From: a virus
IMG/VR virus record: IMGVR_UViG_3300030339_000119
Span: 1 to 38,555 of that record
DNA: 38,555 nucleotides
Strand: one strand, 5' to 3'
Of the stretch, positions 4,570 through 32,449 are shown one piece after another. The translations under genes were made by a program, and so were the position numbers. Position 1 is the stretch's first letter. Each line of letters starts with the position of its first letter. The notes below the pieces were generated by a model. It ran no database searches. It saw only the letters and a list, made by a program, of their open reading frames with translations, and was not told the origin of the DNA.

Positions 4570-6327
4570 ATGAGCGACATTCTAGACATATATGAGCAAG
4601 CGCCTAAAGCAGAAGAGCTATTGAAAGCCTTTGACAGTGGCAAGCTAAGCAATGTAAAAATAAATGAGCCTAAGTCAGCAATCATTGACCCTTATGATGT
4701 AGAGGGCATAATGGGACTAAGGGCTAAGCCTACAGCAATAACATTCTCTACCCTAAGAAGCATGGCCCAGGTGCCAGCTATAGCAGCTATAATAAATACT
4801 AGACTAAATCAAGTAGCAAGGTTTGCAAGAAGACCAAGGTTTGAAGGTGACATGGGCTTCAAGATAGTGCTTAAAGACAGTGACGCTACTATGACAGACC
4901 CACAAAAGAAGAGAGCTTTTGAGATAGAAGAGTTTTTCATGCGTACAGGGGCAGCACCTAATGCTAGGCGTAAAGACAACTTTGATAGCTTCTTAAGAAA
5001 AATAGTAAGAGATACACTAACACTTGATGCAATGGTTTGGGAAAATGTAGCTAGTAAGAGAGGTGAAGCCTCTGAAGTGTGGGCCGTAGATGGTACTACT
5101 ATTGAAATAGTATCTAGTAATCCAGCAGGTGAAGAGGCGCAGGTGCCCGTATATGAACCAATTACAAACAGAGGTAAGAAGGACAGTGGCCACATAGCAT
5201 ATGTACAAAAAATAGATGGTCAAATAGTGGCAGAGTACACTGAGGATGAGCTCACTTATGCAATTAGAAACCCACGTACAGACATAAGAACCGTAGACTT
5301 TGGTATGTCAGAACTAGAGACTTTAATAGAGATAGTCACAGGTATCATGAATAGCATAAGATATAATACCAGCTACTTTAGTAATAGTCATTTACCACAG
5401 GGTGTACTTGAAGTTGTGGGTAAAGTTAAAGATGAGCATCTAGAGGCATTCTCAAGGCACTGGAAGACAATGACAGAGGGTGCAGGTGGTAAGTGGTCGG
5501 TGCCAGTACTAGGCATATCTGAAGGCGCTGGAGTTAAGTTTACACCCTTTCATAACTCTAATAGGGACATGGAATTTAACGAGTTCCTTGAGTTCTTATT
5601 CAATATAGCATGTGCAGTGTATCAGATAGACCCAACTGAAGTAGGCTTTAAGAGCTGGACCAGCGGCAACAGCATGAGTGCTTCAGATAATACAGAGGCT
5701 AAGATGGACCAGTCTAAGGACAAGGGCTTTATACCTCTAATGCAATTCTTAGCTAATACGTTTAACTCTCAGATAGTAGACCATATAGACGATGAATATT
5801 GTCTTATGTGGGTAGGTATAGATGAAGAGGATGAAGATGCTAAGTGGAATAGATACAAAATACAGATAGATTCAGGTGTAGTACAGGTAGCAGAGGTCCG
5901 TAAAAAAGAAGACATGGAAGAGGTACTAGATGAAGAGGGTAAACCTGCCTCATGGACCTTAGCACCAGGTAATACAGTACTTATGCAGGTATTTATGTCA
6001 GAGTTACAAGCTAAGCAGCAGGCAGAGCAAGCAGAGCAGCAGCAAGCACAGCAAGGCCAAGAGCAAGAGCAAGCCCAAGCAACTTCAGACGATGCGCATA
6101 AAAAGAACCTTGAAGTTATGGATAAACAACACGGCCAAAGCATAGACATGCAGAACCTACAGCATAAGCACGACATGGAAGGTAAGAGCGCAGACCAAAA
6201 ACACCAAACAAATATAGAGGCTATGAAACAGAAGGCAGCTGCTAAGGCTAAACCAGGGCAACCAATAAAGAAGTCATTAAATGATGATGAGCCCCTTGAG
6301 GTAATAATAGACTGGGCAGATTATTAG
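4570..6327 (+). CDS. Portal protein
   Basis: 585 aa, ATG after a strong AAGGAGGTG site. Identified as portal from place (after terminase, directly before the MuF-like gene), length and sequence style: an N-terminal region with repeated I/L-rich helices (VPAIAAIINTRLNQ), a central WENV/VWAVDG section, FSNSHLPQG and a YQIDPTEVGF segment, all typical of myovirus portals. The C terminus (about residues 480-570) is a Gln/Glu/Ala-rich helical stretch with a likely coiled coil. Twelve copies would form the DNA entry ring that binds terminase, scaffold and connector. Its stop is 11 nt before the next start. Confidence 0.85.
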   Translation: MSDILDIYEQAPKAEELLKAFDSGKLSNVKINEPKSAIIDPYDVEGIMGLRAKPTAITFSTLRSMAQVPAIAAIINTRLNQVARFARRPRFEGDMGFKIVLKDSDATMTDPQKKRAFEIEEFFMRTGAAPNARRKDNFDSFLRKIVRDTLTLDAMVWENVASKRGEASEVWAVDGTTIEIVSSNPAGEEAQVPVYEPITNRGKKDSGHIAYVQKIDGQIVAEYTEDELTYAIRNPRTDIRTVDFGMSELETLIEIVTGIMNSIRYNTSYFSNSHLPQGVLEVVGKVKDEHLEAFSRHWKTMTEGAGGKWSVPVLGISEGAGVKFTPFHNSNRDMEFNEFLEFLFNIACAVYQIDPTEVGFKSWTSGNSMSASDNTEAKMDQSKDKGFIPLMQFLANTFNSQIVDHIDDEYCLMWVGIDEEDEDAKWNRYKIQIDSGVVQVAEVRKKEDMEEVLDEEGKPASWTLAPGNTVLMQVFMSELQAKQQAEQAEQQQAQQGQEQEQAQATSDDAHKKNLEVMDKQHGQSIDMQNLQHKHDMEGKSADQKHQTNIEAMKQKAAAKAKPGQPIKKSLNDDEPLEVIIDWADY

Positions 6328-6338
6328 AGAGGTGGAAT

Positions 6339-7697
6339 ATGAAAGTGCAAATGACACTACCACTTAAAATGAAAGAGCTTACAGAGGCACAGAGAGCTGC
6401 AGTAGTAGAAGAGTTAAGCAAAGCTATGGGAGTAGCAGGACCTATTACCTATATGCAAGCACCTGAAAAGGAACACAATATATGGGCGCTTAATGATAAT
6501 AGTATGCTAGCAGATGCAGAGGAGGAGCTATACCATGAGCTAGTAGAGCCAGCGTTCAATAACATGGCTGAGCTTATAGCAGCGCTAGGCCTCTCCAATG
6601 AACATGTAGAAATGACTAAATCACTAGGTACAGAGTTTATGGCATATCAAGAAGAACTCATAAAGAGTGCACGTAGACCCAATAAACTAACAGAGCTATG
6701 GAATATAGCCAAGCGTAAGCGTAAGGACTTTATCAAGTATCTACAGGGGCAGGATAATTGGAGCAAGCAAAAGCTCAAGCAGATAGACGGTATATTAAAG
6801 CAAGACCTACCAAACGCTGAGAAGGTAGCAGAGAAGTATGCAGTAAGAGCGGCATTTATAGCTAAGATAAGAAATAAGCAAGATACAGAGGCACTGAAAG
6901 CTACAGGCGCTTATGTGGACCGCTTTCCTACCACTATAAAAGCAGCTAGGCATGAGGGTGTAGTGTTAACAGCAGCTAAAGACCCTGCAATAGAAGTTCT
7001 AGCTAATTTAAGTCCTACAGTTACAGAGGCTGAGTTAGACGAAGCACTAAGAGCAGCTAGAGCTAAGCGTAATCTAGCTATGCATAATTATGAGATATTA
7101 CCTCTACAGCCTCAGGAAATAAGAACTGTAGAGAATGCAGAAATAAGGACCGCAGATAAGATAGCAGAGGTAGCAGAAAAGCACAGAGCAGGTATAAAGC
7201 AAGTAGTACTACAAGCTATCAATGGTCGTTGGTCCGCTGCTAAATTAGCCCAAATGTTATTCGACAAGTTCGGCGAGCAAAACAGGGACTGGAGGCGTGT
7301 AGCTATCACAGAGCTTGCAATGGCCTCTAGTGACGCATTCTTAGCAGGATGTGAAGAAGGGGACCAAGTAACAGTGAATACTGTAGAGGGCTCATGTAGA
7401 TACTGTAAGCAATATCTAGAAGGTAGAACCTTTACAGTAACTCACAAGGCAGAGCTAATGGGAACTAATTACAGTGACGAAATGAACTATGTTTGGGTGG
7501 GTAAGACTAACTATGGCAGGCGTGTAGCAACTTATATACCTTGTATTCCGCTGCATCCTAATTGTAGACATATGTGGCATAAACTATCAAGATTCTACAG
7601 CATGGTAGATGGTAAGCCAACACTGAGATCACTTAAAGACTTGATCAATGAAGAACGTATCAGAAGGGGAATTGGAATTGATGAAAATTTGAAATAA
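6339..7697 (+). CDS. MuF-like head morphogenesis protein
   Basis: 452 aa, GAGGTGG ribosome site. The C-terminal third carries the Mu gpF signature (PF04233): AITELAMA, the EGSCRYCKQYLEGRTF segment, and PLHPNCRHMW near residue 410. The N-terminal part is helical and probably contacts portal or DNA. MuF proteins are minor head proteins of portal neighbourhoods and in many phages precede toxin or polyvalent-protein genes, as here. The last ~25 codons differ in texture (more AT-rich) and hold the only two GATC sites I found in the window (7627 and 7643), just before the inserted minus-strand/HNH pair. Confidence 0.8.
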   Translation: MKVQMTLPLKMKELTEAQRAAVVEELSKAMGVAGPITYMQAPEKEHNIWALNDNSMLADAEEELYHELVEPAFNNMAELIAALGLSNEHVEMTKSLGTEFMAYQEELIKSARRPNKLTELWNIAKRKRKDFIKYLQGQDNWSKQKLKQIDGILKQDLPNAEKVAEKYAVRAAFIAKIRNKQDTEALKATGAYVDRFPTTIKAARHEGVVLTAAKDPAIEVLANLSPTVTEAELDEALRAARAKRNLAMHNYEILPLQPQEIRTVENAEIRTADKIAEVAEKHRAGIKQVVLQAINGRWSAAKLAQMLFDKFGEQNRDWRRVAITELAMASSDAFLAGCEEGDQVTVNTVEGSCRYCKQYLEGRTFTVTHKAELMGTNYSDEMNYVWVGKTNYGRRVATYIPCIPLHPNCRHMWHKLSRFYSMVDGKPTLRSLKDLINEERIRRGIGIDENLK

Positions 7698-8803: not shown

Positions 8804-11800
8804 ATGCTATATGACGCAGACAAACTAGAAATTATAAGCAAATCAGTGCTCTATGATTACTTAGACCCAGCAGCATTTCCAATGGAGGCTTCACAGATGC
8901 TATTTAGAGGTATAGGTGCTAATGAGCTAGCATTTATAAAGGAGCACGGATATATAGCTTCTAAAGGAAAGGGAAATGATTCAGACCAACAGCAGGCGGT
9001 AACCTGCTTTTCCCAGTTATTTAGTCAGGCAGAGGGTTATGCTATCAGCAATTATACATTGTATGGTGAGAAACAAGCTTACGTGCTTGTAGTGACACCA
9101 CCAATAAACGCTGTAGAAAATGAGCTAGGAGAGACAGAGGTACCAGGCACAGTGCCTGAAAGTGCTATAGTAGCCATAATACCAATAGAGCAGCTACAGA
9201 AGTCAATCACAAGAGCAGAGGCTAAGAAGGTGCACAAAGACCTACCGCCTGGAGGTGAGTGGAAGACAGTCAGAGGAAGACATATATATGTACTCAATGG
9301 TAAAATACTGGCAGGCAGCTTAGAGGGTGCTAGTGGTAATGCTAAAAAAGCCACACGAGCACAGCTAAGCGAACATCAAGTTGAACTAGATAAAGAAGTT
9401 AAGAAGAAAAAAACTACAGCTAAAACCTCTACAGTGGCTAAGAAGCCAGTAGCTAAGACAAAGAAGACCACGGAGGTTAAGCCTGCCCCTAAAAAGACTA
9501 TAAAGCCTGTAACAGATAAAAAAGCAGCTGCAGCAAAGACTACAGCTAAGGCACGTAAAGATATAGATGCTATAGCTAACAGCAGACCAAAAGAAAAGAA
9601 AAAGGCTGAAGTGCTACCAAAGGATAATAAAAAGAATGTAGAGGCAGTACTAGCAGGTGCCAACAATAAAGGTACTAAGCTAAAAGCTAAGACAAATACT
9701 AAAGCGGAGCTAGACAAACTAATAGCAGCCAGTGATAAAAAGAAGAGACAACCTAAACCACCTACGGTCAAAGACTTAGATGAAATGTTTGGTGCCTCTA
9801 CACCTAAAGCTAAGCCAGAGGCTAAAAAACCTATTAATAGCAGGTTTAAAAAGGTGCAGGATGCAGGTACTTCTACAGGCGAAAAAATACCATCTAAAGC
9901 GGCCAATACAACGGGTAGTAAGAAAACCAAGGTAGCTGACATAAGGTCTGAGAAGCAGGTTAATCATGATGTAGCCTACGATACAGGGGTTAAGATAGGT
10001 GGTGCTAGGAAGGATATGGCAGAGCTTAGGAAAGCCACTGATAAGCTGATGAGCGACAGCACAGGACAATCCCTCGATGCACTGGAGAACATGGCGCCTG
10101 AAGTAGCACAGCGCTACTGTATCAAGAAAAATTTAATAAATCCAGTGGATTTTGAGGCAGACTACAAGAACGGCATGGATATAAAAACAGCTATGTGTAA
10201 ACAGCTTATCTATGACCGCATAGCACCGAAGCCACCAGGAGATACAGCAGAAGATAGGCAATTATACCTAAATGCAATAAGAAGCCTACAGAGGACACTA
10301 GAGCCTATTAAATCGTGGGATGATTTTAGAAATGCAGTAAGTGACTTAGGTAATCAAATGAAGAGGGAAACACCAGCATTTTTAAAGAATCAACAAGACT
10401 ATTTAGACTATGCTAAAAGGGAAGCAGCCAAAGAGCCTAGTGCCTCAGACTTGATGGAGCGTGATTATAAGGCTGATAAGTGGAACCACATAACACCCGA
10501 AGAGTGGAAAGCTAAGAAGCTAGCCCGTATAAAGGAAGTTGAGAACTCTATAAAGCAGCATCATGAAGCAGCTGCTAAGCCTTATGCGCCTCTGGGTGAT
10601 AAGCTAACTAACTTCTTTACTAACTATGAAAGCCGTAACAGAACCTATGACACTATGAATAAGAAGAAGCTAGACTGGGGTAACTACTTTGCTCAAGCTA
10701 AGGCAGAGGCCGACAAGCCTAAGGAAAAGAAAGTGCCTAATAACACAGTCAGGTGGGAGCGTGTAATGCCTAGAAAGATACAGAGGTCAGGTGGTAGACC
10801 TACACCAGTTAAGAAGCCTGAAGACATGGTAAAGACCTTTAAGTTTAAAGGTGTTGAGTTTGGGAACTATGTAGATGACAAAAGTGGTAACTTCCACTTA
10901 ATAAAGTGTGCAGAGGCCTTCCAGGACTTAGCTGATATATTAGGTATGAAGGACAAAGACGTATCGTTAAATGGTAGTTTATCAATGGCATTCGGAGCCC
11001 GTGGTAAAGGTGCAGCATTAGCTCACTACGAACCAGTGGCAAAGGCTATCAATATTACTAAGAATGGTGGCGCTGGAACACTAGCTCATGAGTGGGGTCA
11101 TGCACTTGATAATCTTATGTATCAAGCAAGTGCTGGGCATAGTTCACTTAACTACGCTTCAGAGGGTATGCAGGACCAAGGGTCTCCAGCAGTTAAAGCA
11201 GCCTATAAGGACGTTATGCACGCTATAATGTTTGGTAATGGTAACGGTAAAGACACCGTGGAGAATAAGCATAAGACGTACTATAGCTTCCACCCTAGCT
11301 TTAAGAAGGCCGTAGAAGAGTTTGGTCTAGGTGGCGCTATAAAGAAAGCTACAGATATGATTAATGAGAAGGCTACTCATAACAACGAATACTATGAGAA
11401 GCTCAGAGGCAGATACGATGATAAAACTATAGATAAAAAGATACTAAGCAATGAGCGTAAAAGAAAGATGGATATAAATGACATGGTTCAAGAAATGGCC
11501 TACCACCACGAGAAGCGTACAGGAGAGAAGTTAGATAACATACCAGTATACTCAGGTCACTCTCAGTACTATGTGGACTCTAGTAAGCAAGGTGGAAAAG
11601 ATAACAAGTACTGGACCAGCAACTGTGAAATGTTTGCCAGAGCCTTTGAGAACTATGTTGAAGGTAAAATGAAGACAGGGCCTATTAAAAATGATTACCT
11701 AGTACACTATACCTACGAGAAAGGTTTTGCTACGTGTCCAGCACCTTACCCACAAGATGAAGAGAGAACAGCTATTCATGCACAATTTGACAAGCTAATG

Positions 11801-13105
11801 GGAGCTATAAGAAGCTCAGGGGCTATACAAAAGGCGCTAGCTATAGAAGCACTAGAAAAATCTATGGGTATTAATATAGCCGAGCATATAGACCAGTCTA
11901 ACCGCAATGCCTACAATGTGCCCAACACTGAGGGTGTGCTATGGATACCAGTAAATAGATTAAGCTGCCCCTACCAAACAGAGGCTGCATTGAACTTTGA
12001 CAAGATACAAGAGAACGTAGAGCATATGAAAGCAGGTGAGAACCTGGAGCCCGTAGTAATTGGCTACGATTATGATGTGCATGATGGTCACCACAGGATA
12101 GAGGCTAGCAAGATAATGAAGTACACCCACATACCCTGCATAGTAGGTGGTTCAAATGACCTACAGGTGCAAAGAGCTGATGAAATGTATAGAGAGATAT
12201 GGAAGTCTGTCAATAAAGAGTTACCACCTGGTGGCCGCTGGGTCACTGTAAGAGGTAGACACACATATATTAAAGATGGTAAGGTACTAGCAGGCGCTAT
12301 ATCTAGCGTACACTTATCTAAAAGACCTTTGTATAGTAATAGTAAGAGGGGTAAGCAGGACAGTGACACCAGCCCCCAAAACAAAAAGGATGTGTCAAAT
12401 ATGAAAAAGAAAGAGGGAATTTCTAACAGTGGAAGAGAAGAAAGTAAAACAAGAGCTATCGGAGGAGACGCTAGCAAGGCTAGACAAAATGAAGCAGGAC
12501 GTAATAGCGGAAATGATAGCAAGAGGATGGAGCAAGGAGCAAGCGGAGGAGCAAGCGGAAGCACTCATGTAAAATACCATGAAGTAGCGCCTAGGGAATT
12601 TCACAGTGCTATAGCAGCTGCAAAAGCTAACAATAGCCACGGAGCCTTTGTAGACCTACACGACCTGGACGACTATAACGGTGACAAGCTGCTAATGTCA
12701 CCAAACGGCGGTGCAGGTGTAGCAGTAACACCTGATGGCAATATAATATCAGTGTTCAAGGACCCAGCTAGTAAAGAAAAGGGAGCTATGCATAGTATCC
12801 TAATGAATGCACTAGAACACGGAGGTAAGAAGTTAGATTGTTTTGATGGAGCGCTACCTACGATGTATGCTAAGTATGGAATGACACCAGTAGCTAAGTG
12901 CAAGTTTAGCAGAGAGTATGCACCTGAAGGTTGGAACTTTGAAAGGGATGGAGAACCAGATGTCATCTTTATGGTCCACAACGGAGACTCAATGGATAGG
13001 GTAAAAGATAACTTTGGAAAATACCCAGCAGCGGACCTGAGTAAGGCGCCCTATGTAGACGAATACGATGAAGGCCTAGCTATGCAGGATAAGTATCTAA
13101 AATAA
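8804..13105 (+). CDS. Giant polyvalent protein: ART-like, metallopeptidase, ParB-like and C-terminal domains
   Basis: 1433 aa, ATG after GAGGAGG. Order by eye: residues 32-130 resemble an ADP-ribosyltransferase fold (FRG with R35, S70 in TCFS, and E110-T-E112, an R-S-ExE pattern). An LPPGG motif at 147 is followed by W-x-TVRGRHIY and GKILAG; a second copy is at 1140. Residues ~190-400 are Lys/Ala/Thr-rich. Residues ~684-770 look like the LPD1-type region of polyvalent proteins ending in H762-EWGH-766, a zinc-peptidase motif. Residues ~1040-1130 look ParB/sulfiredoxin-like with D1094-GHHR. The C-terminal ~175 residues match a domain seen at the end of phage polyvalent proteins (ALPTMYAKYGM, EYAPEGW). 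Such proteins are packaged in heads and ejected; activity is unproven. Confidence 0.75.
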   Translation: MLYDADKLEIISKSVLYDYLDPAAFPMEASQMLFRGIGANELAFIKEHGYIASKGKGNDSDQQQAVTCFSQLFSQAEGYAISNYTLYGEKQAYVLVVTPPINAVENELGETEVPGTVPESAIVAIIPIEQLQKSITRAEAKKVHKDLPPGGEWKTVRGRHIYVLNGKILAGSLEGASGNAKKATRAQLSEHQVELDKEVKKKKTTAKTSTVAKKPVAKTKKTTEVKPAPKKTIKPVTDKKAAAAKTTAKARKDIDAIANSRPKEKKKAEVLPKDNKKNVEAVLAGANNKGTKLKAKTNTKAELDKLIAASDKKKRQPKPPTVKDLDEMFGASTPKAKPEAKKPINSRFKKVQDAGTSTGEKIPSKAANTTGSKKTKVADIRSEKQVNHDVAYDTGVKIGGARKDMAELRKATDKLMSDSTGQSLDALENMAPEVAQRYCIKKNLINPVDFEADYKNGMDIKTAMCKQLIYDRIAPKPPGDTAEDRQLYLNAIRSLQRTLEPIKSWDDFRNAVSDLGNQMKRETPAFLKNQQDYLDYAKREAAKEPSASDLMERDYKADKWNHITPEEWKAKKLARIKEVENSIKQHHEAAAKPYAPLGDKLTNFFTNYESRNRTYDTMNKKKLDWGNYFAQAKAEADKPKEKKVPNNTVRWERVMPRKIQRSGGRPTPVKKPEDMVKTFKFKGVEFGNYVDDKSGNFHLIKCAEAFQDLADILGMKDKDVSLNGSLSMAFGARGKGAALAHYEPVAKAINITKNGGAGTLAHEWGHALDNLMYQASAGHSSLNYASEGMQDQGSPAVKAAYKDVMHAIMFGNGNGKDTVENKHKTYYSFHPSFKKAVEEFGLGGAIKKATDMINEKATHNNEYYEKLRGRYDDKTIDKKILSNERKRKMDINDMVQEMAYHHEKRTGEKLDNIPVYSGHSQYYVDSSKQGGKDNKYWTSNCEMFARAFENYVEGKMKTGPIKNDYLVHYTYEKGFATCPAPYPQDEERTAIHAQFDKLMGAIRSSGAIQKALAIEALEKSMGINIAEHIDQSNRNAYNVPNTEGVLWIPVNRLSCPYQTEAALNFDKIQENVEHMKAGENLEPVVIGYDYDVHDGHHRIEASKIMKYTHIPCIVGGSNDLQVQRADEMYREIWKSVNKELPPGGRWVTVRGRHTYIKDGKVLAGAISSVHLSKRPLYSNSKRGKQDSDTSPQNKKDVSNMKKKEGISNSGREESKTRAIGGDASKARQNEAGRNSGNDSKRMEQGASGGASGSTHVKYHEVAPREFHSAIAAAKANNSHGAFVDLHDLDDYNGDKLLMSPNGGAGVAVTPDGNIISVFKDPASKEKGAMHSILMNALEHGGKKLDCFDGALPTMYAKYGMTPVAKCKFSREYAPEGWNFERDGEPDVIFMVHNGDSMDRVKDNFGKYPAADLSKAPYVDEYDEGLAMQDKYLK

Positions 13106-13423: not shown

Positions 13424-13453
13424 AGTATACCTAATTTTTCTAGCTAATGTAAA
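13424..13453 (-). promoter_or_regulatory. Minus-strand promoter for the DUF4190-like gene
   Basis: On the minus strand, TTTACA (13453-13448), an 18-bp spacer and TATACT (13429-13424): each hexamer is one base off consensus. The -35 coincides with the TGTAAA block of the plus-strand promoter motif 13447-13477. Confidence 0.5.
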
Positions 13454-13477
13454 TAAATGTGAATATCTGATAGAATG
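13447..13477 (+). promoter_or_regulatory. Phage promoter motif, copy 1 (lysozyme)
   Basis: A 31-bp element with TGTAAA (13448), 17 bp, then TAGAAT (13471), preceded by the shared block AATATCTGA. It matches the element at 14575-14605 at 27 of 31 positions. It lies about 55 bp before the lysozyme start. Conservation in noncoding DNA upstream of two genes supports a promoter. Confidence 0.55.
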
Positions 13478-13531
13478 GGTTATAGATGGAAAGTCTTTAA
13501 CGAAATTTATATAGGAAAGAAGGATGATAAA

Positions 13532-14574: not shown

Positions 14575-14605
14575 GTGTAAATATCTGTTAATATCTGATA
14601 GAATG
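14575..14605 (+). promoter_or_regulatory. Phage promoter motif, copy 2 (second giant gene)
   Basis: TGTAAA at 14576, 17 bp, TAGAAT at 14599; 27 of 31 positions match copy 1. It contains a tandem TAAATATCTG/TTAATATCTG. The last base of the -10 is the first base of the terminator stem at 14604-14641. Confidence 0.55.
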
Positions 14606-14641
14606 TGGTGTAAAGACATAAATATTTACACCACATTTTTT
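14604..14641 (+). terminator. Intrinsic terminator overlapping a promoter
   Basis: A perfect 11-bp stem (TGTGGTGTAAA 14604-14614 with 14625-14635), 10-nt loop and six T (14636-14641). It ends the lysozyme transcript. A transcript started from the promoter above would begin near 14611 and lack most of the left arm, so it should escape. Confidence 0.85.
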
Positions 14642-14662
14642 AATAAAGGGGGTACACAAATT

Positions 14663-17600
14663 ATGGATACAACAGAACCTATATTATATATAGACTTACA
14701 GAAGAGTGTAAGCTGGAAAGAAGAACTCCATAAGCGTACAGCTAATGGCCGTTTCACTACAGTTCGTACAGGGTCTAAGATTGTTACATCCACTGGTAAA
14801 ACAGGCGTCGTAACAAAAGTAGGCGATGAGCACTACCACTATAGGGATGACTCAACAGGTAAGCTAGGTAAAGTCGCTAAAAACAACGCTATACATCATG
14901 CAGACCACGCTAAGGCTATGGAAGCTCAAAAGAAGGCAAAGAGAAAAAAGGCTGCAGCAGCTAAAGGAACAGCCACAAAAGTTACCAATAAAGCTAATGG
15001 CCATGGTAAGGCAAAAGAGCTACCAATACCAAAGACTAAAGCTGCAGAGGCTAAGAGCACAAAGAAAACCTCTACAGCAGCAAAGAAGGCTACAGTGGCA
15101 GCCCCTACTACAAAGGTGACAAAGACTAAGCCTACAGAGGCTAAAGTTACAAAGACAGCTGCAAAAGCTAAGCCAGCCACAACTAAAGCGGCTACAAAGA
15201 AAGCTACAGTAACACCAGCTGCACCACTAGTAATTACACCAAAGGGCACAGCTAAAGCTAAGTCTAAGAAAGTGAAGAAGGTTATACCTCCAGCACCGAA
15301 GCCAACTGACAGCGTATTTGATGCGTCACCCAACTCAAGAGGCAACGTAGCTGCAAAGGTTAAGACTACACCTATTAAGAATGCAGGCAAAAAAGCAGTA
15401 GACCCTATGGATGATAAGCAAAATCAAGAATTAAAGAAATATGAGAATATGGAAAATGATAGGGATACAACTCAAGATATAGACAATATGTGGAACAGCA
15501 AGCCAGTGCAAAGACTAATGAACCGTGCCCCTGAAAAGCGCTCAGAGGACGATATTAGAGCACTAGCAGGTGATATAACAACAAAGAACGATAAGCTAGC
15601 TAGACACGCAACGCTTCAAATGGGTAAGGCCAGAGGCTTAAACCTACTAATGCAACAAAATAGAATAGGTGATGTAGGCCAAAGTGGTAATGGTGAGGTA
15701 ATCAATCAAGAGACAGGTTACTACGGAGACCTATTACAAGCAGCTAGAACTTCCATGTATGAAACTCTGTACAAGATTATGAAGGGCAGCCAAAACCCTA
15801 AAGCAGGTGCAAGTATAGGAGCGCATGTAGTAAACAGGATGAAGCAACAATTACACGGTGACATATATGACCTTATGCATGATGTACCAGCACCGCATGA
15901 GATACGTACTGCTATAGCTGATATGGAAAGTGGTAGAAAAACATTGCAGCAAACACTGGGACGTAATCCTGAGGACAAGGAACTAGCAGAGCATCTTCAA
16001 GCAACTTCTAAGCGTTTCAAAGAAGCACCTATAATGGACCACCCAACATATGATGAAAAGACTAATCAATGGGTAGGTTTTAAGAACCGTATTGCAGACC
16101 CAGTGGAGAGGCTAAGAGCTTTAAGCACTTATGCAGCTCAACAAAAGGCTACATCTATGGACAAAAACATGGCCTCTGAGGGTGAAAACGAGGTAAATGT
16201 AGGCACTAACCTTAAAGACGAAAACCTAACACCTGATGAAGCCTATGAGAGAAAAGAGAGACAAAAGGAACTAGAGACTGATATACCAGCAGCCCTAGAC
16301 CAACTAGGCCTAAATGAAAAAGAAAAGATGGTATTTATGACTATGTTCGGAAGCCCTTCAGCTAAGATTAAACGTGGCAATCTTACAATGGACGAGACTG
16401 CAGAGATTATTAATAATGAAGGTGGCTATGACGGTGGCCAAAAAGCTAATAAACAGTGGGTAAATAAATACTATAGGTCAGCTATGGAAAAAATCATAGC
16501 AGCTAGAAAGAGCAATCATCCAGCATTACAAGAACTACAAAGTAAGTTTATGAAGTCTTTATTCTTTGACTTAGTGTTTAAAGCTCTATATGAATATGAC
16601 CTTATTAAGTCTATGCATAGCTGGGGTATAGGTATAGAGACACTACACCAGGAATATACTAGAACAGCTGGAGCAGCTAACCTTTTATCACTAAGGAAGT
16701 CATTAGCACCATATGAATATATAGGCTCAGTAGTAACTACAGAGGACGGGGGTATACACGCTAGAATTGTAGAGTTCGCAGTACCAGATGATACAGCACT
16801 TTACAAGTCATTTTCAGCGTCAATGGACCAATTAAAAAAATCCATGTTCCCCCACGTAGGAAAATCTAACCATGAAATAAATAAAAAAGCTGCAGACTAT
16901 GTAAAAGCAAATAAAGCTAAGTATAGCTCAGCCTCTGACGCACAACATGCAGCAGCAAAAGCTAAGAAGGGTGACCTTACTTGGTCAGAGAAATTACTGC
17001 TAGACAATCCTGGCAGTGCTTGGCTTAGCTGGGGTGGTAAACGTATCCTTATTGCCGTGGGGGACGGTAAGGTACTATATGACTCTAGCAATGAACAGCA
17101 CAGAGACACACATAACAATGGAGCCTCTGAGGATAAGATAGACTTTCACCACGAAAAAGATAAGCTAGCAGAGCAAGGACTAGAAGACACTGAGGAGAGT
17201 AGAGCTAAGGTAAACGATGGTATACAAGCCTTTAAAGAACAAATGGACGATATGAGAACTGAGTGGAAAACCAAAGTACAGCCTAAGCTTAGGGATGAGA
17301 ATGAGCATAAAGTAGGTAATGCCTACATGAATATGACTGAGGCTCAGCGTAAGGAAGTAGAGGACGCTCAGGACAAGAAATATGCCGTGGGTAAAACTAT
17401 ATTTGAGTGGCATGAGGCAGCTATTACTGAGGCTGCAAATGAACTACGAGCTAAGGCAAAGGACATTGATGCAGACGACTCACTTGATAAAGCAGGTAAG
17501 AAAGCAGCCCTAGACGCAGCTAAGGAAGAGTTTGCACTTAAAATGCAGAAAATAGGCGGTGCAAAGTCTAACGGTATGGGAACTAAAAAGAAAATGATAC

Positions 17601-20600
17601 CAGTAGGCACCACTGTACTTAACCTGCCAGATGTGGACTCAGACAGCTCAAAGGCTGCAATAGCTAGGCACATAGGAGAAGCGGAATTAGGTAGAGGTAG
17701 AGACGACGTAGGAAAGAAGATGCTTCCTGAGGGTACTTTCATGATAGGTAATCCCGTAACAGGCAAGACAATGGTAGTTAAGATTAAAAATGGTTTTGGT
17801 ACTGGAGGTACTAAGACTACATGGACCTCAGCTATTACAGAGGCTTTTGACCCAGACGGAGGTGAGCATGAAGCACTAACATCTTGGGGTGGACTTGGTA
17901 GAGCTCTAGGTCTTAAGAGTAAAGACATGCAAAATGACATAGTCGCAAAGGCTAATGACCAGGAAGATAAACCCTTTGTTAAGCAAATAAGCGAAGAAGA
18001 ATACAATAGCATGAGAGCAAACACTAAGGTAGGCCTACAAGAGAGTATGACCCACAAGGACTTTAAGCTAGTAGACCAGCGCCTTGATAAGGACAACAAG
18101 TTATCAAGTAGCACCTATGCACAAGATATGCCAGACGGGACACAAAATACCTTTACAGTGGACGCTAAGGGGCATATCACTGACCCAGTAATGGCTAGAC
18201 TTATAAGCCAAACTAAGCCTATTAAGAGCGTAGATGACCTACACGATGTATTAAAAAATGCAGTAGGTAATAGAGCCTGGGTAACTGCTCACTTCGGTAG
18301 TGACATACATGTAGGCAGTGCACTAGGTCATCACGTACAATTGGAATATGATGGTAAGGGAGCGCCTAGAGTAGTCGGTGGTGTATATGATGGCTATAGA
18401 TTTATAGACACCAGAGATATACCAAAGGACTCAATAGACCCAGCCACAGGGGAACCTATTAAAGCATTATTTAAAAATGGTAAGCTAGTCGACAGAGGCT
18501 TAACTACTAAGAATGATGTAGCAATGGATAAGGGCAACCCAGTAATGTACAAGGATGGAGACAAGTACAAGAAGGGTAAAATACACTCTATAGAAGACGG
18601 AAGCTATAAAATAACTGATAGCAAAGGCAACGTAGTCGGAATGTTTAAGAAGGACCAATTGAAGCCAGTTAGAGCAGAGGGTAAGACTAACTCAAAGAGT
18701 GGCCAAGCCGTAGTGAGACTAGCTCAAGATGGAATGCACAGAGCCGATACTAATGCTATGTTTACAGCTGAAAATGACAAAGACCAAAAGAAATTAGATA
18801 AGGCTAGAGACCTATTTAGTCAAGCCCTTCAAAAGGCAGGGGTAAGCAGAGCCTTTGATAAAGAGGGTGTACTAAATAAGGACCTAGAATTAAATGATGA
18901 AACTATGGCTAAGCTTAAAAAAGTACTCGGTAGGTCAAAGGCAGGAAAAGTACTTCTTGACCAATTTAAGAGTGCTTACACTAAAGAGTTAGAAATACAC
19001 GTTCCTGATAGTTTAAAGGCTCAAATAGAGGCTGAGGGTGTTTCTGTTGGACCTAACGGTACAGCTAGAATATCGGTAGGTAAATTTGAGCAATTAAGGG
19101 ATGTACTCGGTGGCTTATCTATAGACAGTGGCGCAAGAAAGCACCTAGAAGAGCACTTTAACAGAAAAGATAGAAAGCCTATGGAAGAACGTATGCCTGA
19201 GATAATAAAGAACTACGACCCACGAAGCGTAGATACAAAGACAGCCTTTGGTAAAGCCTACAGAGACCAGTTTAAAGACGATAGCTTTATGATGGAAAAG
19301 GATAAAGGCCTCTACGGTGTTCAACTTCAAGGTGTAACGCACTTAATTGAAAGAGGCAGAGGTATTGTAGGTCACGGAATGGGTATAGGTAAGACAGCCA
19401 CAGGGGTTGCAGCTGCTATGCACTATAAAGCTACACAAATAGCTAACGGTGAGAAGCCTAAGAAAACTCTTATAGTATCACCAGCTGGTATTCAAAGCGA
19501 CTGGGGTAAGGAAATAGGAGGTAATACTAACTCTAGGGCCCTTTATATAGGCTCACAGGGCACACTTAAAAAGAACAATGCAGACGGTACAGTTATGAAG
19601 GCAGCTAATGGTAGAAATATGTTTGGTCAAAACGGTACAGAGCAAGAGAGCGTAGGTGCTAAACAATTCCTAAAGAACATGGATAGCATAGGCAAAGAAG
19701 ACCACGACTTCCACATCATGAGTTACGACCAATTTAAAAAGATGAGGCATGAGATAGCTAATTCAGGTCTATACGACAATATCATAATAGATGAAATCCA
19801 TGCATTTAAAAACCAAAGTGGCCAACGTGGTAAGTCACTTGCAGAGACTACTGATAAGTTTAAAAACGTTTGGGGGCTATCAGGTACACCTATGGAAAAT
19901 GACGCCAGAGAAGTGTACTCTCTAATAGACACAGTAACAGGTGGTAAACATGCTCTAGGTACTAAAAAAGAGTTTACAGACAACTATCTGATGAAGGATA
20001 AAAATGGTAAAATCATAGGTGTAAAAGAGAATAAGGCACATAAGCTAGGGGATATTTTAGCTAACGTGGTCCAATTTAGAGCAGGCACAGACGTTAAGCG
20101 TACTGACAACAGCACAATCCAGTTCCCACAATTAGTAGGAGCAACCTCAGAGGCTAATCCTAACCCACAAAGTGACTTCATAGGCAACATGGTAGACAGG
20201 AACCGTGACCATCAAACTACTGACTACTATGGAACTAAGCACTCAGTGTTTGACTACAAAGGTGACATGCAGACAGTGACAGCTAAAGATGGCAGCACAT
20301 ACGAAGTACCAACTACAGAGCCTACAAACCTAGATAAGGATACAGAGGACTTCTATAGCAAGTACAGAGAGCTACAAGCACAGCATCTACCTGAATCTAA
20401 GTTAAAGGAACTAGCGCAAGCAGCCTCTACAGGTTATGACACTGGAAGTGCAAATAGCAAGAGCAGCGGTAAGAACTATCTTACAGCTATGCAAAAGCTA
20501 CAAAAATACCTAAACGGTGGTAAGCATATAGAGAACATGTATGTACCTGGAGGTGGAAGTGCACTTGACTCAGAGGCTACAGGGGAGCAAACAATAGCAA

Positions 20601-21610
20601 AGGCACCAGGTAAAAAGAAAGCTGAGGGTATGAAGCCTTATAATCCAGTAACAGGTGAAGGTCATTACACAGTGGACAGCGACGGGCACAAAAGATACTT
20701 TGAAAGTGATGGTAAAGGTGGCTATAACAGAAATGCAGATGGTTCTCCGAAGCTACTACCGCCACTACACTATAACAACCCTAAAGCACAGTACCTAAAG
20801 CAAAGACTAAATACTTACTTAGACGCATTAGCTAATGAAAACGCTAGTCGTAAAAAGGCAGGGCAGCCAGAGCTTATGCCTAAGGTAGTGTGTAAGTCTT
20901 CTTATACAACTTTTGGTACTGACATAATGGATAATGTTATAAGAGACGTACAGAGGGAGCATCCTCACTTAGCATACTGGGCTAATAAGCTTAAGAAAGA
21001 AGGAAAGCCACCATTAGACGCAGGGCAATTTACTGGGGAAGCAACTGACAGAGAGTCTACAAAGACTGGCTTCAGAGGTAATAAAAAAGACTATGCTAAC
21101 AACCAGGGTAACTTGTGGGCAACTACAGTATCTCCAGCAGGTAAGGAAGGTGTAGACTTTGGTAATGCACACCTTATGCTTATGTATGACCAAGACTGGA
21201 ACCCACAGAGGATGGCACAGTTCACTGCCAGAGTTAGACGTTCGGACTCTGCAGAGAAAGCTCATAATCAAGTAGGAAGGTCGAACTCAGTAAGAGTAGA
21301 GTCTCTTCATATGCCAGGCACAGTGGAGGACTTTATGTTTAATGCTGAAGATGCTAAGATGAGGGACATTAACCAGGTTACTAGGGCAACTAGAGACGAA
21401 GAGGAGTCCCGTAAGTTTGGGGACTCAGAGGCGCAAATAGGTACTAGTAGAAGATTCTCCAGAGGCGCAAACCGTAAAGTGGGTAATACACCTAAGAATA
21501 CTAAACTAGCACCTGACAGAGAAGTGGCTATACCTGAGCCAAGAAAAAGAGCTGCAGCAAGGCAAGAAGTTGCAGCAACAAAAGCACTGAAGCTAGTAAT
21601 TTTATTATAA
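14663..21610 (+). CDS. Giant polyvalent protein: sigma-70-like region and SNF2-type helicase
   Basis: 2315 aa from the ATG behind AAAGGGGG (an ATG at 14603 lies in the promoter and is rejected). Residues 1-80: a small beta region (TANGRFTTVRTG). 85-250: Lys/Ala/Thr-rich, like histone H1 tails. About 300-620: sigma-70-like, with a region-2-like stretch around 314-420, a region-3-like LGRNPEDKELAEHL at 432, and a region-4-like segment with LTMDETAEI at 574. Around 1293-1320: a short SH3-like stretch. 1550-2240: SF2/SNF2 helicase with GMGIGKT (1572-1578), DEIH (1710-1713), GLSGTPMEN and motif VI QFTARVRR (2186-2193). It is probably packaged in the head and ejected. The helicase call is firm; the sigma call is moderate. 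Confidence 0.8.
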   Translation: MDTTEPILYIDLQKSVSWKEELHKRTANGRFTTVRTGSKIVTSTGKTGVVTKVGDEHYHYRDDSTGKLGKVAKNNAIHHADHAKAMEAQKKAKRKKAAAAKGTATKVTNKANGHGKAKELPIPKTKAAEAKSTKKTSTAAKKATVAAPTTKVTKTKPTEAKVTKTAAKAKPATTKAATKKATVTPAAPLVITPKGTAKAKSKKVKKVIPPAPKPTDSVFDASPNSRGNVAAKVKTTPIKNAGKKAVDPMDDKQNQELKKYENMENDRDTTQDIDNMWNSKPVQRLMNRAPEKRSEDDIRALAGDITTKNDKLARHATLQMGKARGLNLLMQQNRIGDVGQSGNGEVINQETGYYGDLLQAARTSMYETLYKIMKGSQNPKAGASIGAHVVNRMKQQLHGDIYDLMHDVPAPHEIRTAIADMESGRKTLQQTLGRNPEDKELAEHLQATSKRFKEAPIMDHPTYDEKTNQWVGFKNRIADPVERLRALSTYAAQQKATSMDKNMASEGENEVNVGTNLKDENLTPDEAYERKERQKELETDIPAALDQLGLNEKEKMVFMTMFGSPSAKIKRGNLTMDETAEIINNEGGYDGGQKANKQWVNKYYRSAMEKIIAARKSNHPALQELQSKFMKSLFFDLVFKALYEYDLIKSMHSWGIGIETLHQEYTRTAGAANLLSLRKSLAPYEYIGSVVTTEDGGIHARIVEFAVPDDTALYKSFSASMDQLKKSMFPHVGKSNHEINKKAADYVKANKAKYSSASDAQHAAAKAKKGDLTWSEKLLLDNPGSAWLSWGGKRILIAVGDGKVLYDSSNEQHRDTHNNGASEDKIDFHHEKDKLAEQGLEDTEESRAKVNDGIQAFKEQMDDMRTEWKTKVQPKLRDENEHKVGNAYMNMTEAQRKEVEDAQDKKYAVGKTIFEWHEAAITEAANELRAKAKDIDADDSLDKAGKKAALDAAKEEFALKMQKIGGAKSNGMGTKKKMIPVGTTVLNLPDVDSDSSKAAIARHIGEAELGRGRDDVGKKMLPEGTFMIGNPVTGKTMVVKIKNGFGTGGTKTTWTSAITEAFDPDGGEHEALTSWGGLGRALGLKSKDMQNDIVAKANDQEDKPFVKQISEEEYNSMRANTKVGLQESMTHKDFKLVDQRLDKDNKLSSSTYAQDMPDGTQNTFTVDAKGHITDPVMARLISQTKPIKSVDDLHDVLKNAVGNRAWVTAHFGSDIHVGSALGHHVQLEYDGKGAPRVVGGVYDGYRFIDTRDIPKDSIDPATGEPIKALFKNGKLVDRGLTTKNDVAMDKGNPVMYKDGDKYKKGKIHSIEDGSYKITDSKGNVVGMFKKDQLKPVRAEGKTNSKSGQAVVRLAQDGMHRADTNAMFTAENDKDQKKLDKARDLFSQALQKAGVSRAFDKEGVLNKDLELNDETMAKLKKVLGRSKAGKVLLDQFKSAYTKELEIHVPDSLKAQIEAEGVSVGPNGTARISVGKFEQLRDVLGGLSIDSGARKHLEEHFNRKDRKPMEERMPEIIKNYDPRSVDTKTAFGKAYRDQFKDDSFMMEKDKGLYGVQLQGVTHLIERGRGIVGHGMGIGKTATGVAAAMHYKATQIANGEKPKKTLIVSPAGIQSDWGKEIGGNTNSRALYIGSQGTLKKNNADGTVMKAANGRNMFGQNGTEQESVGAKQFLKNMDSIGKEDHDFHIMSYDQFKKMRHEIANSGLYDNIIIDEIHAFKNQSGQRGKSLAETTDKFKNVWGLSGTPMENDAREVYSLIDTVTGGKHALGTKKEFTDNYLMKDKNGKIIGVKENKAHKLGDILANVVQFRAGTDVKRTDNSTIQFPQLVGATSEANPNPQSDFIGNMVDRNRDHQTTDYYGTKHSVFDYKGDMQTVTAKDGSTYEVPTTEPTNLDKDTEDFYSKYRELQAQHLPESKLKELAQAASTGYDTGSANSKSSGKNYLTAMQKLQKYLNGGKHIENMYVPGGGSALDSEATGEQTIAKAPGKKKAEGMKPYNPVTGEGHYTVDSDGHKRYFESDGKGGYNRNADGSPKLLPPLHYNNPKAQYLKQRLNTYLDALANENASRKKAGQPELMPKVVCKSSYTTFGTDIMDNVIRDVQREHPHLAYWANKLKKEGKPPLDAGQFTGEATDRESTKTGFRGNKKDYANNQGNLWATTVSPAGKEGVDFGNAHLMLMYDQDWNPQRMAQFTARVRRSDSAEKAHNQVGRSNSVRVESLHMPGTVEDFMFNAEDAKMRDINQVTRATRDEEESRKFGDSEAQIGTSRRFSRGANRKVGNTPKNTKLAPDREVAIPEPRKRAAARQEVAATKALKLVILL

Positions 21611-25501: not shown

Positions 25502-25646
25502 GCAGTGCACTATACAACAAAACCACGTAAGGGGTAGTATAGAGTCGTGTGTGTACCAGTCAGGTCGGTTCTGCCAGCTCTACCGCCCTACTTTGAGCAC
25601 TGCACACGGTTCTATAGTGCCCCTTAAGTCATATATTCAAGGGAGG
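25502..25646 (+). ncRNA. Structured RNA leader, possible switch, before the protease gene
   Basis: No gene lies in 25425-25654. A long hairpin pairs 25529-25551 with 25603-25625 (22 of 23 positions, three of them wobbles). Upstream, GCAGTGC (25502-25508) can pair instead with GCACTGC (25597-25603), and GCACTATA (25507-25514) with TATAGTGC (25613-25620). Both compete with the long hairpin. The hairpin's last bases CCCTT (25621-25625) can also pair with AAGGG (25639-25643) of the ribosome site. A small hairpin (25446-25460) lies further upstream. No known riboswitch class is recognised. Confidence 0.5.
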
Positions 25647-25654
25647 TGGTACAC

Positions 25655-27229
25655 ATGCAAGACAGTATTGAAGACAGCTACAACCTGTTTATACCTATCG
25701 AAGACCACGACCTTATGAAGTCCGTAGAAGCTGACGAAAACGGGGACTACATAGTACAGGGCGTTATGACCTCCGACGATGTAGATGAAGAGGACGACAG
25801 CATTACACCTGAGGGTATGGACTGCAGCTACTTTTTAACTAAGGGCTGGATTAAATACGAACACGGTAATGCACCTAACCAGTTTATAGGGGAACCTCTA
25901 GAGGTTAGAGTAGGCCAGTTTGAACACCCTACATTGCACAAGTCTGTCAGTGGCATCTATGTCAAAGGTAGACTGTTTGCTCAAAGAGAGCTCACAAAAC
26001 AAGCTGTAGGTATGCTTCAGGACTTACAGAAGTCCAATACAAAGCGAAGGATGGGCTGGAGCATTGAAGGCAACGTAAAAGAGCGGGACCGTGACTCAGG
26101 TAAGATAGTTAAATCTATCCTTAGGAACGTCGTGCTTACGCTAAATCCTGTGAATACGACCACTTGGGCCGAGCTATCTAAATCCTTTGCTAAGAACCAT
26201 GAGCTAACTATAGACATGGAGAAGGCTATGGACATAGGTGCAGCAGCTGCTATAAACAAGCAATCACTCGAAGGCGACTGTGTCCCCGTAGATGGAGAAC
26301 CAGGAGAGCCTGCGAAATGGATTAAGCTTTTCAGGGAATTTGTAAAAGGCTGCCTAATAAGCAAGTCTTTACGTAATGAGTTCGTAGCTAGTCCTCCGAG
26401 CGTAGTAGGAATGACCGCCTACACATACGCACTGGATACAGGGCTAGATAACGAGGATGCATACGAATTTGCATCTTATATATCCGATAGACACGAAGTC
26501 CTAAAATCCTTGTTTGGGACTACTAATTTTGGAGGTGGCACAATGGCAAAGATAAGTAGTTTGTTAGATGCAGACTTAGAAGAGCTTCAAAAGTCTTTCG
26601 ATAACGAGGACAATGAAGACGAAGGTAAAGATAAAAAGAAGAAAAAAGACGACGAGGACGACGACGAAGGCAGCGAAGATGATAATAAAGGCAACGAGGG
26701 TGATAACGAGGACGATGACAAAGAGAAGTCTTTAACACCAGACTTTGCTAAATCGTTTGCAGCTGAAGACGGCAACGCCCAAGCACTTGACGTATCTGAG
26801 TTCTTATCTAACTTAGTAGACGAAGTAGGTTACAGCATGGACGGGTTCGCTAAGTCAATGACACACGTAACTAAGCAGAATAACGTAATAGCTAAAGCAC
26901 TAACTTCAGTGTGTGAGCTAGTTCAAAGTCTATCTGATAAAGTAGAGGACCTACAAACAGAGAACGGTGACCTTCAAAAGTCGCTTAACGATGTATTAAA
27001 TATGCCAGTAGGTAGAAAAAGCGTAGTAAGTGGTAAAGAAGTAGTAACACTTCAAAAAAGCTTAAATGCTGATAGAACGCCACTTAACAGAGCTCAAGTA
27101 GGTGACATTCTTATGAAGTCATTTGATGCTGGAGAAATACCAGGTAGCACAGTGTCTCGTTTTGAAGCAGGTGTAAATTTAAGTCAATTAAGTCTACCAA
27201 AATCTGTCACTGACAAATTAGGATTATAA
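25655..27229 (+). CDS. Capsid maturation protease-scaffold fusion
   Basis: 524 aa from the ATG 6 nt after GGGAGGTGG (a GTG at 25646 is inside that site). Residues ~1-180 fit a prohead protease: WIKYEHG with H70, a VKGRLF strand, GWSIEG with S136 (Ser near the end of the fold), then LRNVVLTLNPVN. A linker follows. From ~297 the protein is a scaffold: an Asp/Glu/Lys-rich stretch of ~60 residues, then coiled coils (LSDKVEDLQTENGDLQKSL) and a C-terminal region before the capsid gene. The scaffold organises prohead assembly and is then degraded. It lies directly before the capsid gene. An internal start at 26543 should give scaffold alone. Confidence 0.8.
   Translation: MQDSIEDSYNLFIPIEDHDLMKSVEADENGDYIVQGVMTSDDVDEEDDSITPEGMDCSYFLTKGWIKYEHGNAPNQFIGEPLEVRVGQFEHPTLHKSVSGIYVKGRLFAQRELTKQAVGMLQDLQKSNTKRRMGWSIEGNVKERDRDSGKIVKSILRNVVLTLNPVNTTTWAELSKSFAKNHELTIDMEKAMDIGAAAAINKQSLEGDCVPVDGEPGEPAKWIKLFREFVKGCLISKSLRNEFVASPPSVVGMTAYTYALDTGLDNEDAYEFASYISDRHEVLKSLFGTTNFGGGTMAKISSLLDADLEELQKSFDNEDNEDEGKDKKKKKDDEDDDEGSEDDNKGNEGDNEDDDKEKSLTPDFAKSFAAEDGNAQALDVSEFLSNLVDEVGYSMDGFAKSMTHVTKQNNVIAKALTSVCELVQSLSDKVEDLQTENGDLQKSLNDVLNMPVGRKSVVSGKEVVTLQKSLNADRTPLNRAQVGDILMKSFDAGEIPGSTVSRFEAGVNLSQLSLPKSVTDKLGL
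26543..27229 (+). CDS. Nested in-frame scaffold protein (internal start)
   Basis: An ATG in the protease frame (codon 297) has a perfect GGAGG at 26531-26535, 7 nt upstream. That is better than chance inside a coding region and lies exactly at the protease/scaffold border. The product would be 228 aa: acidic arm plus coiled coil. Phage lambda makes scaffold Nu3 within protease gene C in the same way, giving excess scaffold over protease. Confidence 0.65.
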   Translation: MAKISSLLDADLEELQKSFDNEDNEDEGKDKKKKKDDEDDDEGSEDDNKGNEGDNEDDDKEKSLTPDFAKSFAAEDGNAQALDVSEFLSNLVDEVGYSMDGFAKSMTHVTKQNNVIAKALTSVCELVQSLSDKVEDLQTENGDLQKSLNDVLNMPVGRKSVVSGKEVVTLQKSLNADRTPLNRAQVGDILMKSFDAGEIPGSTVSRFEAGVNLSQLSLPKSVTDKLGL

Positions 27230-27357: not shown

Positions 27358-28704
27358 ATGACTGCCCTTAGACCTCAGTCACTTGAAGGTACTTTAAAGG
27401 TAGTTACAGCTACAATAGAACAAATCAAGATGTGGAAAAGAATAGGTAAGAAAAAAGCATTTAATACTGTAGAAGAATTTAATGTAATGGACAGCATGGG
27501 AGGTAACACTTCACCGTTCTTCACTGAAGGTGGGTTACCTAACGAAGAAGATTCTAACTACATCAGACAATCTCAATACGTTAAGTTCTTAGGTACTACT
27601 AGAGTTATTACTCATCCAGCTACCTTAGTAACTAACACAGTGGGAGATATAGTAGCTAGAGAAACTACTAATGGTACTTCATGGTTACTACAACAACTTG
27701 AAAAAGGGCTATACTTTGCTGATTCCAGCTTAGACTCATTAGCTTTTGATGGTATCATCCCTCAAGTTAAGAACTTTGTAAAAGGTAAACCATATGAAAC
27801 TCAACATGTTATTGACATGAAGGGCGCTCCATTAGATGAAAGCACTTTGGAAGACATATGTACAGTTATTGCTGATAACTTCGGAAGAGGGATGCTAGAA
27901 CTTCATATGACTAACCAAGTTAATAAGGACCTTTCAAAAATCATCATGGGAACATCAGGAAGACAAAGAGTAATAGGCACAGGGACTGAAGTGGACTTAG
28001 GTGCACCAGTTAGAGGCTACTTAGCTAACACAGGTAGAGTAGAGTTCGTAAACAACGTATTCATGAAACCTCAAGCTACAGTGCCAACTGCAAGTGCTAA
28101 CGGCGCTCCAGCGGTACCAACTTTCCCAGCTTCTCAATTAACAGCAGCTGCAGATACTGCAAGTAACTTAGCAGCAGGAACTTACTACTACTTTGTAACA
28201 GCTAAAAATAGTGCAGGAGAATCTGCTCCAGTATCGTTGGGCTCAATAGCTACAACTGCAGGGCAAGCAGTAACTATACTTATTAATAGAGTAGTAACTT
28301 CTCCAGTAGCTAAGTCTTACAAAGTGTACAGAGGCTACTATTCAGATGCTACTAAAGCTCAATTCATGGTAGAAGTTAAGGATGCAGGTACAGGTACTAC
28401 ACAATCTATTGTGGATGAAAACTTGAATATCCCAGGAACTCATACAGCGATTCTTATGGATAATGACCCAGACCAAGTTCTAGCATTCAAACAATTAGCT
28501 CCATTAATGAAATTACCGCTTGCTAGAATTTCAGCAGCAGAAAGATTTATGATACTGCTTTATGGAATGGTGCAAGTGTACAACCCAAGAAGAATGGTAG
28601 TTCTTAAGAATATCGGAACATTAGGTCTTAACAGTAATAGAGAATTATTTACACCTAGCTATGGTGCAGCTTCTTATGGTACTGTTCACCCAGTGCTTCA
28701 ATAA
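27358..28704 (+). CDS. Major capsid protein with inserted Ig/FN3-like domain
   Basis: HK97-fold capsid (448 aa from this ATG; the natural start is probably 27243 with a frame change). ALRPQSLEGTLK, the KAFNTVEEFN strand, an ITHPATLVTN segment and the closing FMILLYGMVQVYNPRRMVVLKNIG are typical of the large phage capsid family with an SU10-like N terminus. About residues 240-358 are extra: LAAGTYYYFVTAKNSAGESAPVS, then SYKVYRG and a Thr-rich strand, which read as a fibronectin-III/Ig-like domain that would stand on the capsid surface. The ATG has only AGGTG 2 nt away, so it is a poor start. A terminator follows at 28726. Confidence 0.85.
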   Translation: MTALRPQSLEGTLKVVTATIEQIKMWKRIGKKKAFNTVEEFNVMDSMGGNTSPFFTEGGLPNEEDSNYIRQSQYVKFLGTTRVITHPATLVTNTVGDIVARETTNGTSWLLQQLEKGLYFADSSLDSLAFDGIIPQVKNFVKGKPYETQHVIDMKGAPLDESTLEDICTVIADNFGRGMLELHMTNQVNKDLSKIIMGTSGRQRVIGTGTEVDLGAPVRGYLANTGRVEFVNNVFMKPQATVPTASANGAPAVPTFPASQLTAAADTASNLAAGTYYYFVTAKNSAGESAPVSLGSIATTAGQAVTILINRVVTSPVAKSYKVYRGYYSDATKAQFMVEVKDAGTGTTQSIVDENLNIPGTHTAILMDNDPDQVLAFKQLAPLMKLPLARISAAERFMILLYGMVQVYNPRRMVVLKNIGTLGLNSNRELFTPSYGAASYGTVHPVLQ

Positions 28705-32421: not shown

Positions 32422-32449
32422 AAAAAAAATTAATAGGAGGATGATATAT

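Follow-up and report, generated by a model that had tools for sequence, protein, structure and literature searches.

A divergent sigma70-family module joined to an SNF2 ATPase in a giant head-module phage protein, with a co-occurring class of phage-specific promoter-like sites

The giant 2 protein of a contractile-tailed phage contains, at residues 294-670, a divergent yet complete sigma70-family module with regions 2, 3, the 3.2 finger and 4. The module is under purifying selection, its gene stands among the head genes, and a class of promoter-like sites co-occurs with it in related phages. We analysed a window of 38,555 nucleotides (IMG/VR record IMGVR_UViG_3300030339_000119), which matches part of the 80,258-base IMG/VR contig G001 at 99.99% identity. 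We propose that giant 2 would be a polyvalent protein packaged in the head and delivered together with the DNA, that its sigma module would bind host core RNA polymerase (RNAP) through region 2.2 (and region 4), and that the polymerase would be directed to phage-specific promoters (variable -35, -10 of the form CCTnTGTATAgT, 5' hairpin) before non-structural genes. The SNF2 ATPase in the same chain could then move along or remodel the incoming DNA or the polymerase. A head-packaged working sigma that redirects host polymerase to phage-specific promoters, with an SNF2 motor attached, is the reading we narrowly favour. Its stronger form is put forward tentatively, as something short of an even chance: the packaged protein would make host polymerase read private promoters from the first minutes, region 4 and the -35 drifting together while the -10 and region 2 stay nearly fixed.

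The sigma70-family module of giant 2

Run alone against NCBIfam, giant 2 matched FliA_WhiG (1.5e-6, residues 416-474), RpoD_Cterm (414-601) and sigma70-ECF (519-604), and against Pfam it matched Sigma70_r3 (2.9e-4), the scores of this single sequence lying under the curated cut-offs. A profile built from 13 giant 2 family sequences was then run against PDB sequences at E<=10. The results showed 64 matches, with 60 of the 60 among the matches listed being sigma factors (best, SigA at 2e-6), and the alignments ran collinearly through regions 2.2-3.1, 3.2 and 4. Foldseek searches with two AlphaFold2 models returned sigma factors or RNAP-sigma complexes as the best 50 PDB matches of each (best E 7.7e-5), and the leading named matches in BFVD were stand-alone phage sigma factors. 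Both models have a sigma fold with the sigma70-family domain order, are of moderate confidence (mean pLDDT 64 and 69, pTM about 0.40) and gave low global TM-scores (about 0.2), as expected where linked domains may be placed differently; they were used for domain assignment alone and not for domain arrangement. We regard homology of the module to sigma factors as nearly certain. Sigma regions 2, 3 and 4 had been proposed here by a sequence-only reading, which also called for a profile search; that search was positive, and profile and fold now agree with the proposal. The borders it gave, 15560-16530, were somewhat narrow, the true span being slightly wider at 15482-16612 (Table 1).

Table 1. 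Coordinates of the features discussed (window positions unless stated otherwise)
Feature	Position	Strand	Remarks
Portal protein	4570..6327	+	
MuF-like minor head protein	6339..7697	+	
Giant 1	8804..13105	+	LPD1 polyvalent-protein domain and ParB-like domain
In-window copy of two-block element (GTACACTT..CCTTTGTATAGTA)	12306..12345	+	inside C-terminal part of giant 1 ORF; followed by GGGG..CCCC
Second 31-bp motif copy	13444..13484	+	before endolysin ORF
Giant 2 leader with 31-bp motif	14586..14641	+	extended -10 at 14596-14605; hairpin 14604-14635 and T-run
Giant 2 ORF as listed	14603-21610	+	2335 aa
Giant 2 with probable start Met21	14663..21610	+	2315-2335 aa; sigma module, middle part, SNF2 ATPase
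Sigma70-family module, residues 294-670	15482..16612	+	sequence profiles, fold matches
Sigma 1.2/2.1-like helices, residues 294-345	15482..15637	+	model secondary structure and alignment; weakest-supported part
Sigma region 2.2-2.4, residues 372-425	15716..15877	+	family alignment and profile
Sigma region 3.0-3.1, residues 426-480, LGRNPEDKELAEHL	15878..16042	+	NCBIfam, Pfam, profile
Sigma region 3.2 (finger)-like segment, residues 516-560	16148..16282	+	profile alignment to SigA
Sigma region 4.1-4.2, residues 561-632	16283..16498	+	one of the sigma regions that differ most from phage to phage
SNF2 ATPase N-lobe, residues 1576-1831	19328..20095	+	intact Walker A GHGMGIGKT and DEIH box
SNF2 C-lobe motifs V/VI (Helicase_C)	21125..21241	+	in giant 2
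Head maturation protease / scaffold	25646..27229	+	
Major capsid protein	27358..28704	+	
G001 copies of two-block element	52080, 53404, 58521, 73997		reverse-complement coordinates of G001

We mapped giant 2 residues onto E. coli sigma70 through the family profile and compared the 13 sequences. In sigma70, D403 and Q406 serve core binding, Y425, F427, Y430, W433 and W434 promoter melting, and H455/E458 the extended -10. The results showed that D376 and Q379 of giant 2, equivalent to D403 and Q406 in region 2.2, are invariant (13/13), while the E407 and N409 positions are altered, the latter to an invariant Arg. The five melting positions are non-aromatic, with the exception of a Tyr at 430 in a distant clade, and position 434 is an invariant Arg; the H455/E458 contacts are not kept either. 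Aromatic melting residues are not universal among alternative sigma factors, and their loss weakens a sigmaA-like mechanism without weakening sigma70-family membership. These residues suggest a module capable of binding polymerase, whose promoter contacts would be either peculiar to it or absent; it may not open DNA in the usual way, since most of the aromatic melting and extended -10 residues are unconserved.

Scanning IMG/VR with the SNF2 part of giant 2 gave 22 loci, and the sigma region is present in every distinct giant whose sequence covers the N-terminal half. Main-clade giants were matched by profile at E 1e-99 to 1e-248, and a separate clade with 31% SNF2 identity has a sigma70-ECF match of its own (3.3e-5). 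Homologues run singly also reached sigma models, with RpoD_Cterm at 6.7e-6 in L031 and Sigma70_r3 above the curated cut-off in L023. For the pair L010/L032 (dS about 1), omega was 0.020 in the sigma region, 0.114 in the N-terminal part, 0.033 in the middle part and 0.059 in SNF2, so the middle and SNF2 parts are strongly constrained too. A second pair, L031/L024, gave 0.016 for the sigma region from few changes, and L026/L025 were too close for an informative value. The sigma region is thus under purifying selection, its omega being the lowest in one good pair (L010/L032) and not across a broad sample. A genome-contig search returned no relatives of the sigma and SNF2 regions, so no host or prophage was assigned, and tblastn of the phage collection returned no relative. 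Three weak fecal-contig matches to the sigma region were rejected as an RpoD fragment, an overlap with a sigma-factor-like frame and an unrelated protein.

The SNF2 helicase named in the sequence-only reading was found at residues 1576-1831. Domain scans of giant 2 recognised only the SNF2 core as regards RapA-family identity, and no adenine methylase domain appeared in the Pfam, NCBIfam and PHROGs scans.

Head-module setting and the giant 2 leader

Genes in the window run in the order TerL pieces, portal, MuF-like minor head protein, HNH/EndoVII-like, giant 1, GH25 endolysin, giant 2, minor-head-like, protease/scaffold, major capsid protein and sheath. Wherever the loci of relatives reach, the order portal, MuF-like, giant 1, giant 2, protease, capsid, sheath is kept. 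Phage polyvalent proteins are regarded as being packaged in the virion and injected (Iyer et al. 2017, PMC5512222), and giant 2 has their traits, being large, multidomain and encoded among head and packaging genes. Domains of the polyvalent class are present in both giants, SNF2 in giant 2 and LPD1 and ParB-like in giant 1. Judged purely by gene position, giant 2 is probably packaged in the head. Ten records searched for an RNAP beta subunit yielded none (14/14 controls positive), so the host polymerase is presumably used. An ART-like part previously suspected in giant 1 gave no Pfam or PDB match.

The start of giant 2 is probably ATG 14663 (Met21) rather than ATG 14603, because homologues begin at an equivalent Met and ATG 14603 lies inside the promoter -10. 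That promoter belongs to a 31-bp motif, which the earlier reading had offered as the target of the sigma. The motif occurs in only two copies in the 80-kb genome (13444 and 14572), and both contain TGATAGAAT, a host-type extended -10 (TGnTAnAAT); on these two grounds we rejected it as a private promoter, and a host-type promoter with a hairpin in its leader describes it better. The extended -10 lies 67-88 nt upstream of the giant 2 start in 9/9 main-clade loci checked, a copy stands upstream in L045 too, and six of the nine showed a terminator-like hairpin and T-run. A promoter with a terminator-like hairpin immediately behind it suggests attenuation or a small leader RNA.

The GH25 endolysin between the giants (13475-14569) carries choline-binding repeats, which suggest a Firmicutes-type host; no matching endolysin was seen between the giants in the relatives examined.

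The two-block promoter-like class

Word enrichment in the non-coding DNA of G001 brought out CGTATACTTT, which is part of a 40-bp element made up of a -35-like GTATACTT, about 18 bp, a -10-like CCTTTGTATAGT and, in most copies, a G-rich hairpin; one example reads CCGTATACTTTCTGGGAAGACCTTTGTATAGTAAGAATAG. We compared G001 with six more genomes (G002, G003, G005, G006, G007 and G008, from L066-L099). The results showed that each of the 7/7 giant 2 phage genomes has its own version of the element. The -35 blocks are GTCCACT (G002), GTAGAG (G003), AAGAGTT (G005) and TAGAATT (G006 and G007), and a -10 block of CCTnTGTATrgT or near it is common to six genomes; the distant G008 differs, having GTCACAG with CCCGGTGTACG. 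Pattern counts were 5, 7, 13, 7, 6, 10 and 11 (about 59) in G001, G002, G003, G005, G006, G007 and G008, respectively, with 0 on the opposite strand, 0 in 20 shuffles per genome and no cross-matches between genomes except G006/G007. As the patterns were written after the sites had been seen, the strand and shuffle controls weigh more than the counts.

The weight-matrix set held 58 sites, one G006 coding outlier having been removed by hand. Most were intergenic (52/58), 56/58 lay outside the TerL-to-sheath segment, and many stood 45-70 nt upstream of an ORF. The 45 nt after the sites form more stable folds than their mononucleotide-shuffled versions do (mean z -2.2 to -4.0). Downstream genes, assigned by eye, include a small SNF2 helicase (G002, G003, G007), thymidylate kinase (G003, G007) and dUTPase (G007), and we infer that the genes behind the sites are early genes. 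Host sigmaA-like promoters also precede some non-structural genes. A scan of 2.9 million IMG/VR contigs with one form of the core found these phages, a fragment with the copies of G007, and one unrelated coding match on three contigs. The single in-window copy, with 0.00 expected by chance, lies within giant 1; there the element, GGGG..CCCC and AAAACAAAAAGG (12306-12400) are in frame from residue 1168 on, and this suggests that the last ~240 residues of giant 1 may, in addition, form a gene in their own right, its leader being read through.

The giant 2 sigma is the only sigma detected in all seven genomes. Stand-alone sigmas were detected in 3/7 (G003, G005, G007) and none in G001, G002, G006 and G008, no record being known to be complete. 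Mean identity is 63% in sigma 2.2-2.4 and 41 and 40% in 4.1 and 4.2; region 3.2 is variable as well (38%), so region 4 is not the only part that varies. The shared -10 and variable -35 appear to parallel the conserved sigma2 and variable sigma4, a parallel and not a proof, and the distant G008 departs from the others in its sigma as well as in its promoter blocks. The recognition-helix stretch NKYYRSAM is found in G001 and G002, whose -35s resemble each other, and G006 and G007, with the same -35, share NR after WV-x; overall sigma4 pairwise identity does not single out the latter pair. The pairing is correlational, coming from seven related genomes with shared ancestry. Three relatives, L057, L058 and L059, have strong stand-alone sigmas in open frames of 412-490 aa.

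Alternative explanations and known systems

Docking without promoter choice is the chief rival to a promoter-selecting sigma. The module would then be a docking device for host core RNAP, and the SNF2 motor would evict, recycle or disable the polymerase in a RapA-like manner, or pull DNA in. Such a role would suit a module that keeps its core-binding residues while losing most aromatic melting and extended -10 residues, whose fusion partner, an intact SNF2 ATPase, belongs to the same superfamily as RapA, and that coexists with host-type promoters before some non-structural genes. However, regions 3.2 and 4, which are needed for initiation beyond docking, are kept, purifying selection acts on the module, and the co-occurring phage-specific promoter-like class needs a reader; we consider docking unlikely. 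That reader might be another factor (a stand-alone sigma, an undetected phage activator or a host alternative sigma), with the giant 2 sigma acting otherwise, and we rate this slightly lower still. The strong stand-alone sigmas of G003, G005 and G007 speak for it, but the other four genomes have the promoter class with no stand-alone sigma detected (records possibly incomplete), and a single host sigma would have to serve hosts that presumably differ (genome G+C 43-60%).

A relic, retained solely to bind DNA or to serve as a structural part of a head protein, would also fit the module's strong divergence from cellular sigmas and its altered DNA-contact positions. Against this stand the very low omega in the informative pair and the ordered sigma regions in distant phages, which make it improbable. 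The chance of a fortuitous sigma resemblance, for which the single-sequence scores below curated cut-offs might be cited, is negligible given that the PDB matches listed and the leading fold matches are sigma factors aligned in register. Returning to the promoter-selecting sigma, we think it likely, granted the rest of the scheme, that giant 2 reads the two-block promoters.

Compared with SigA/RpoD, FliA/WhiG and SigB, the giant 2 module has regions 2, 3.0-3.1, 3.2 and 4 in the same order and shares the D403/Q406 equivalents. It differs from the sigma70 family in being embedded in a 2,300-aa protein, in its inserts between 2.1 and 2.2, before region 3.2 and within 4.2, and in the absence of most aromatic melting residues. 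Stand-alone phage sigmas (the BFVD matches and L057-L059) are likewise phage-encoded, have a similar fold and redirect host RNAP, as proposed for giant 2, but they are free and presumably made after infection, whereas the giant 2 sigma is part of a predicted virion protein. RapA, an SWI2/SNF2 RNAP-recycling ATPase, works with RNAP as the SNF2 part of giant 2 might; it is cellular and has no sigma domain. The poxvirus factor VETF is a virion-packaged promoter-specificity factor with an SF2 ATPase, from an unrelated lineage and serving a viral polymerase in eukaryotes. Closest in setting are the phage polyvalent proteins, among them P1 DarB, like giant 2 a head-module giant with an SWI2/SNF2 ATPase and presumed packaging; a neighbouring giant with LPD1 and ParB-like domains is a further shared trait (PMC5512222). 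DarB fuses an adenine methylase to its SNF2 helicase, whereas giant 2 has no methylase found and a sigma module instead. The word sigma is absent from the main text of Iyer et al. 2017 (PMC5512222). The N4 virion RNA polymerase is a precedent for a giant protein that brings transcription machinery for early genes in the virion, and T4 Alt is a virion protein that acts on host RNAP at injection (PMC5512222). N4 carries in a whole polymerase, while giant 2 would bring only a specificity factor for the host polymerase, and Alt acts by covalent ADP-ribosylation rather than as a sigma.

There is thus precedent for sigma factors, including those of phages, for polyvalent proteins and for polymerases carried in the virion; no predicted virion protein containing a sigma came up in the literature searched, most subscription papers and preprints being outside its scope. 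The usual view is that tailed phages lacking a polymerase begin transcription with host sigma factors and make regulators of their own afterwards. If our proposal is true, phages that deliver a specificity factor along with their DNA would escape this initial dependence on host sigma, and in the stronger form of the proposal each phage would have its own transcription code. The promoter-like sets of the seven genomes allow the idea to be tested directly and provide a natural series of sigma-promoter pairs.

Several minor features were also observed. The terL gene is interrupted at 1004-1913 by about 0.9 kb with a 185-aa ORF; TerL is contiguous in most relatives and interrupted also in G007, and an Rfam scan of the window, including this insert (as an intron), gave nothing at the gathering threshold. 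At 32399-32800, a 24-nt tandem repeat of about 12 copies encodes TPEAAAEV repeats. Outside the window, G001 (reverse-complement 64256-67690) encodes what looks by eye like a family A-like DNA polymerase, seemingly split by a small ORF at 64957-65490.
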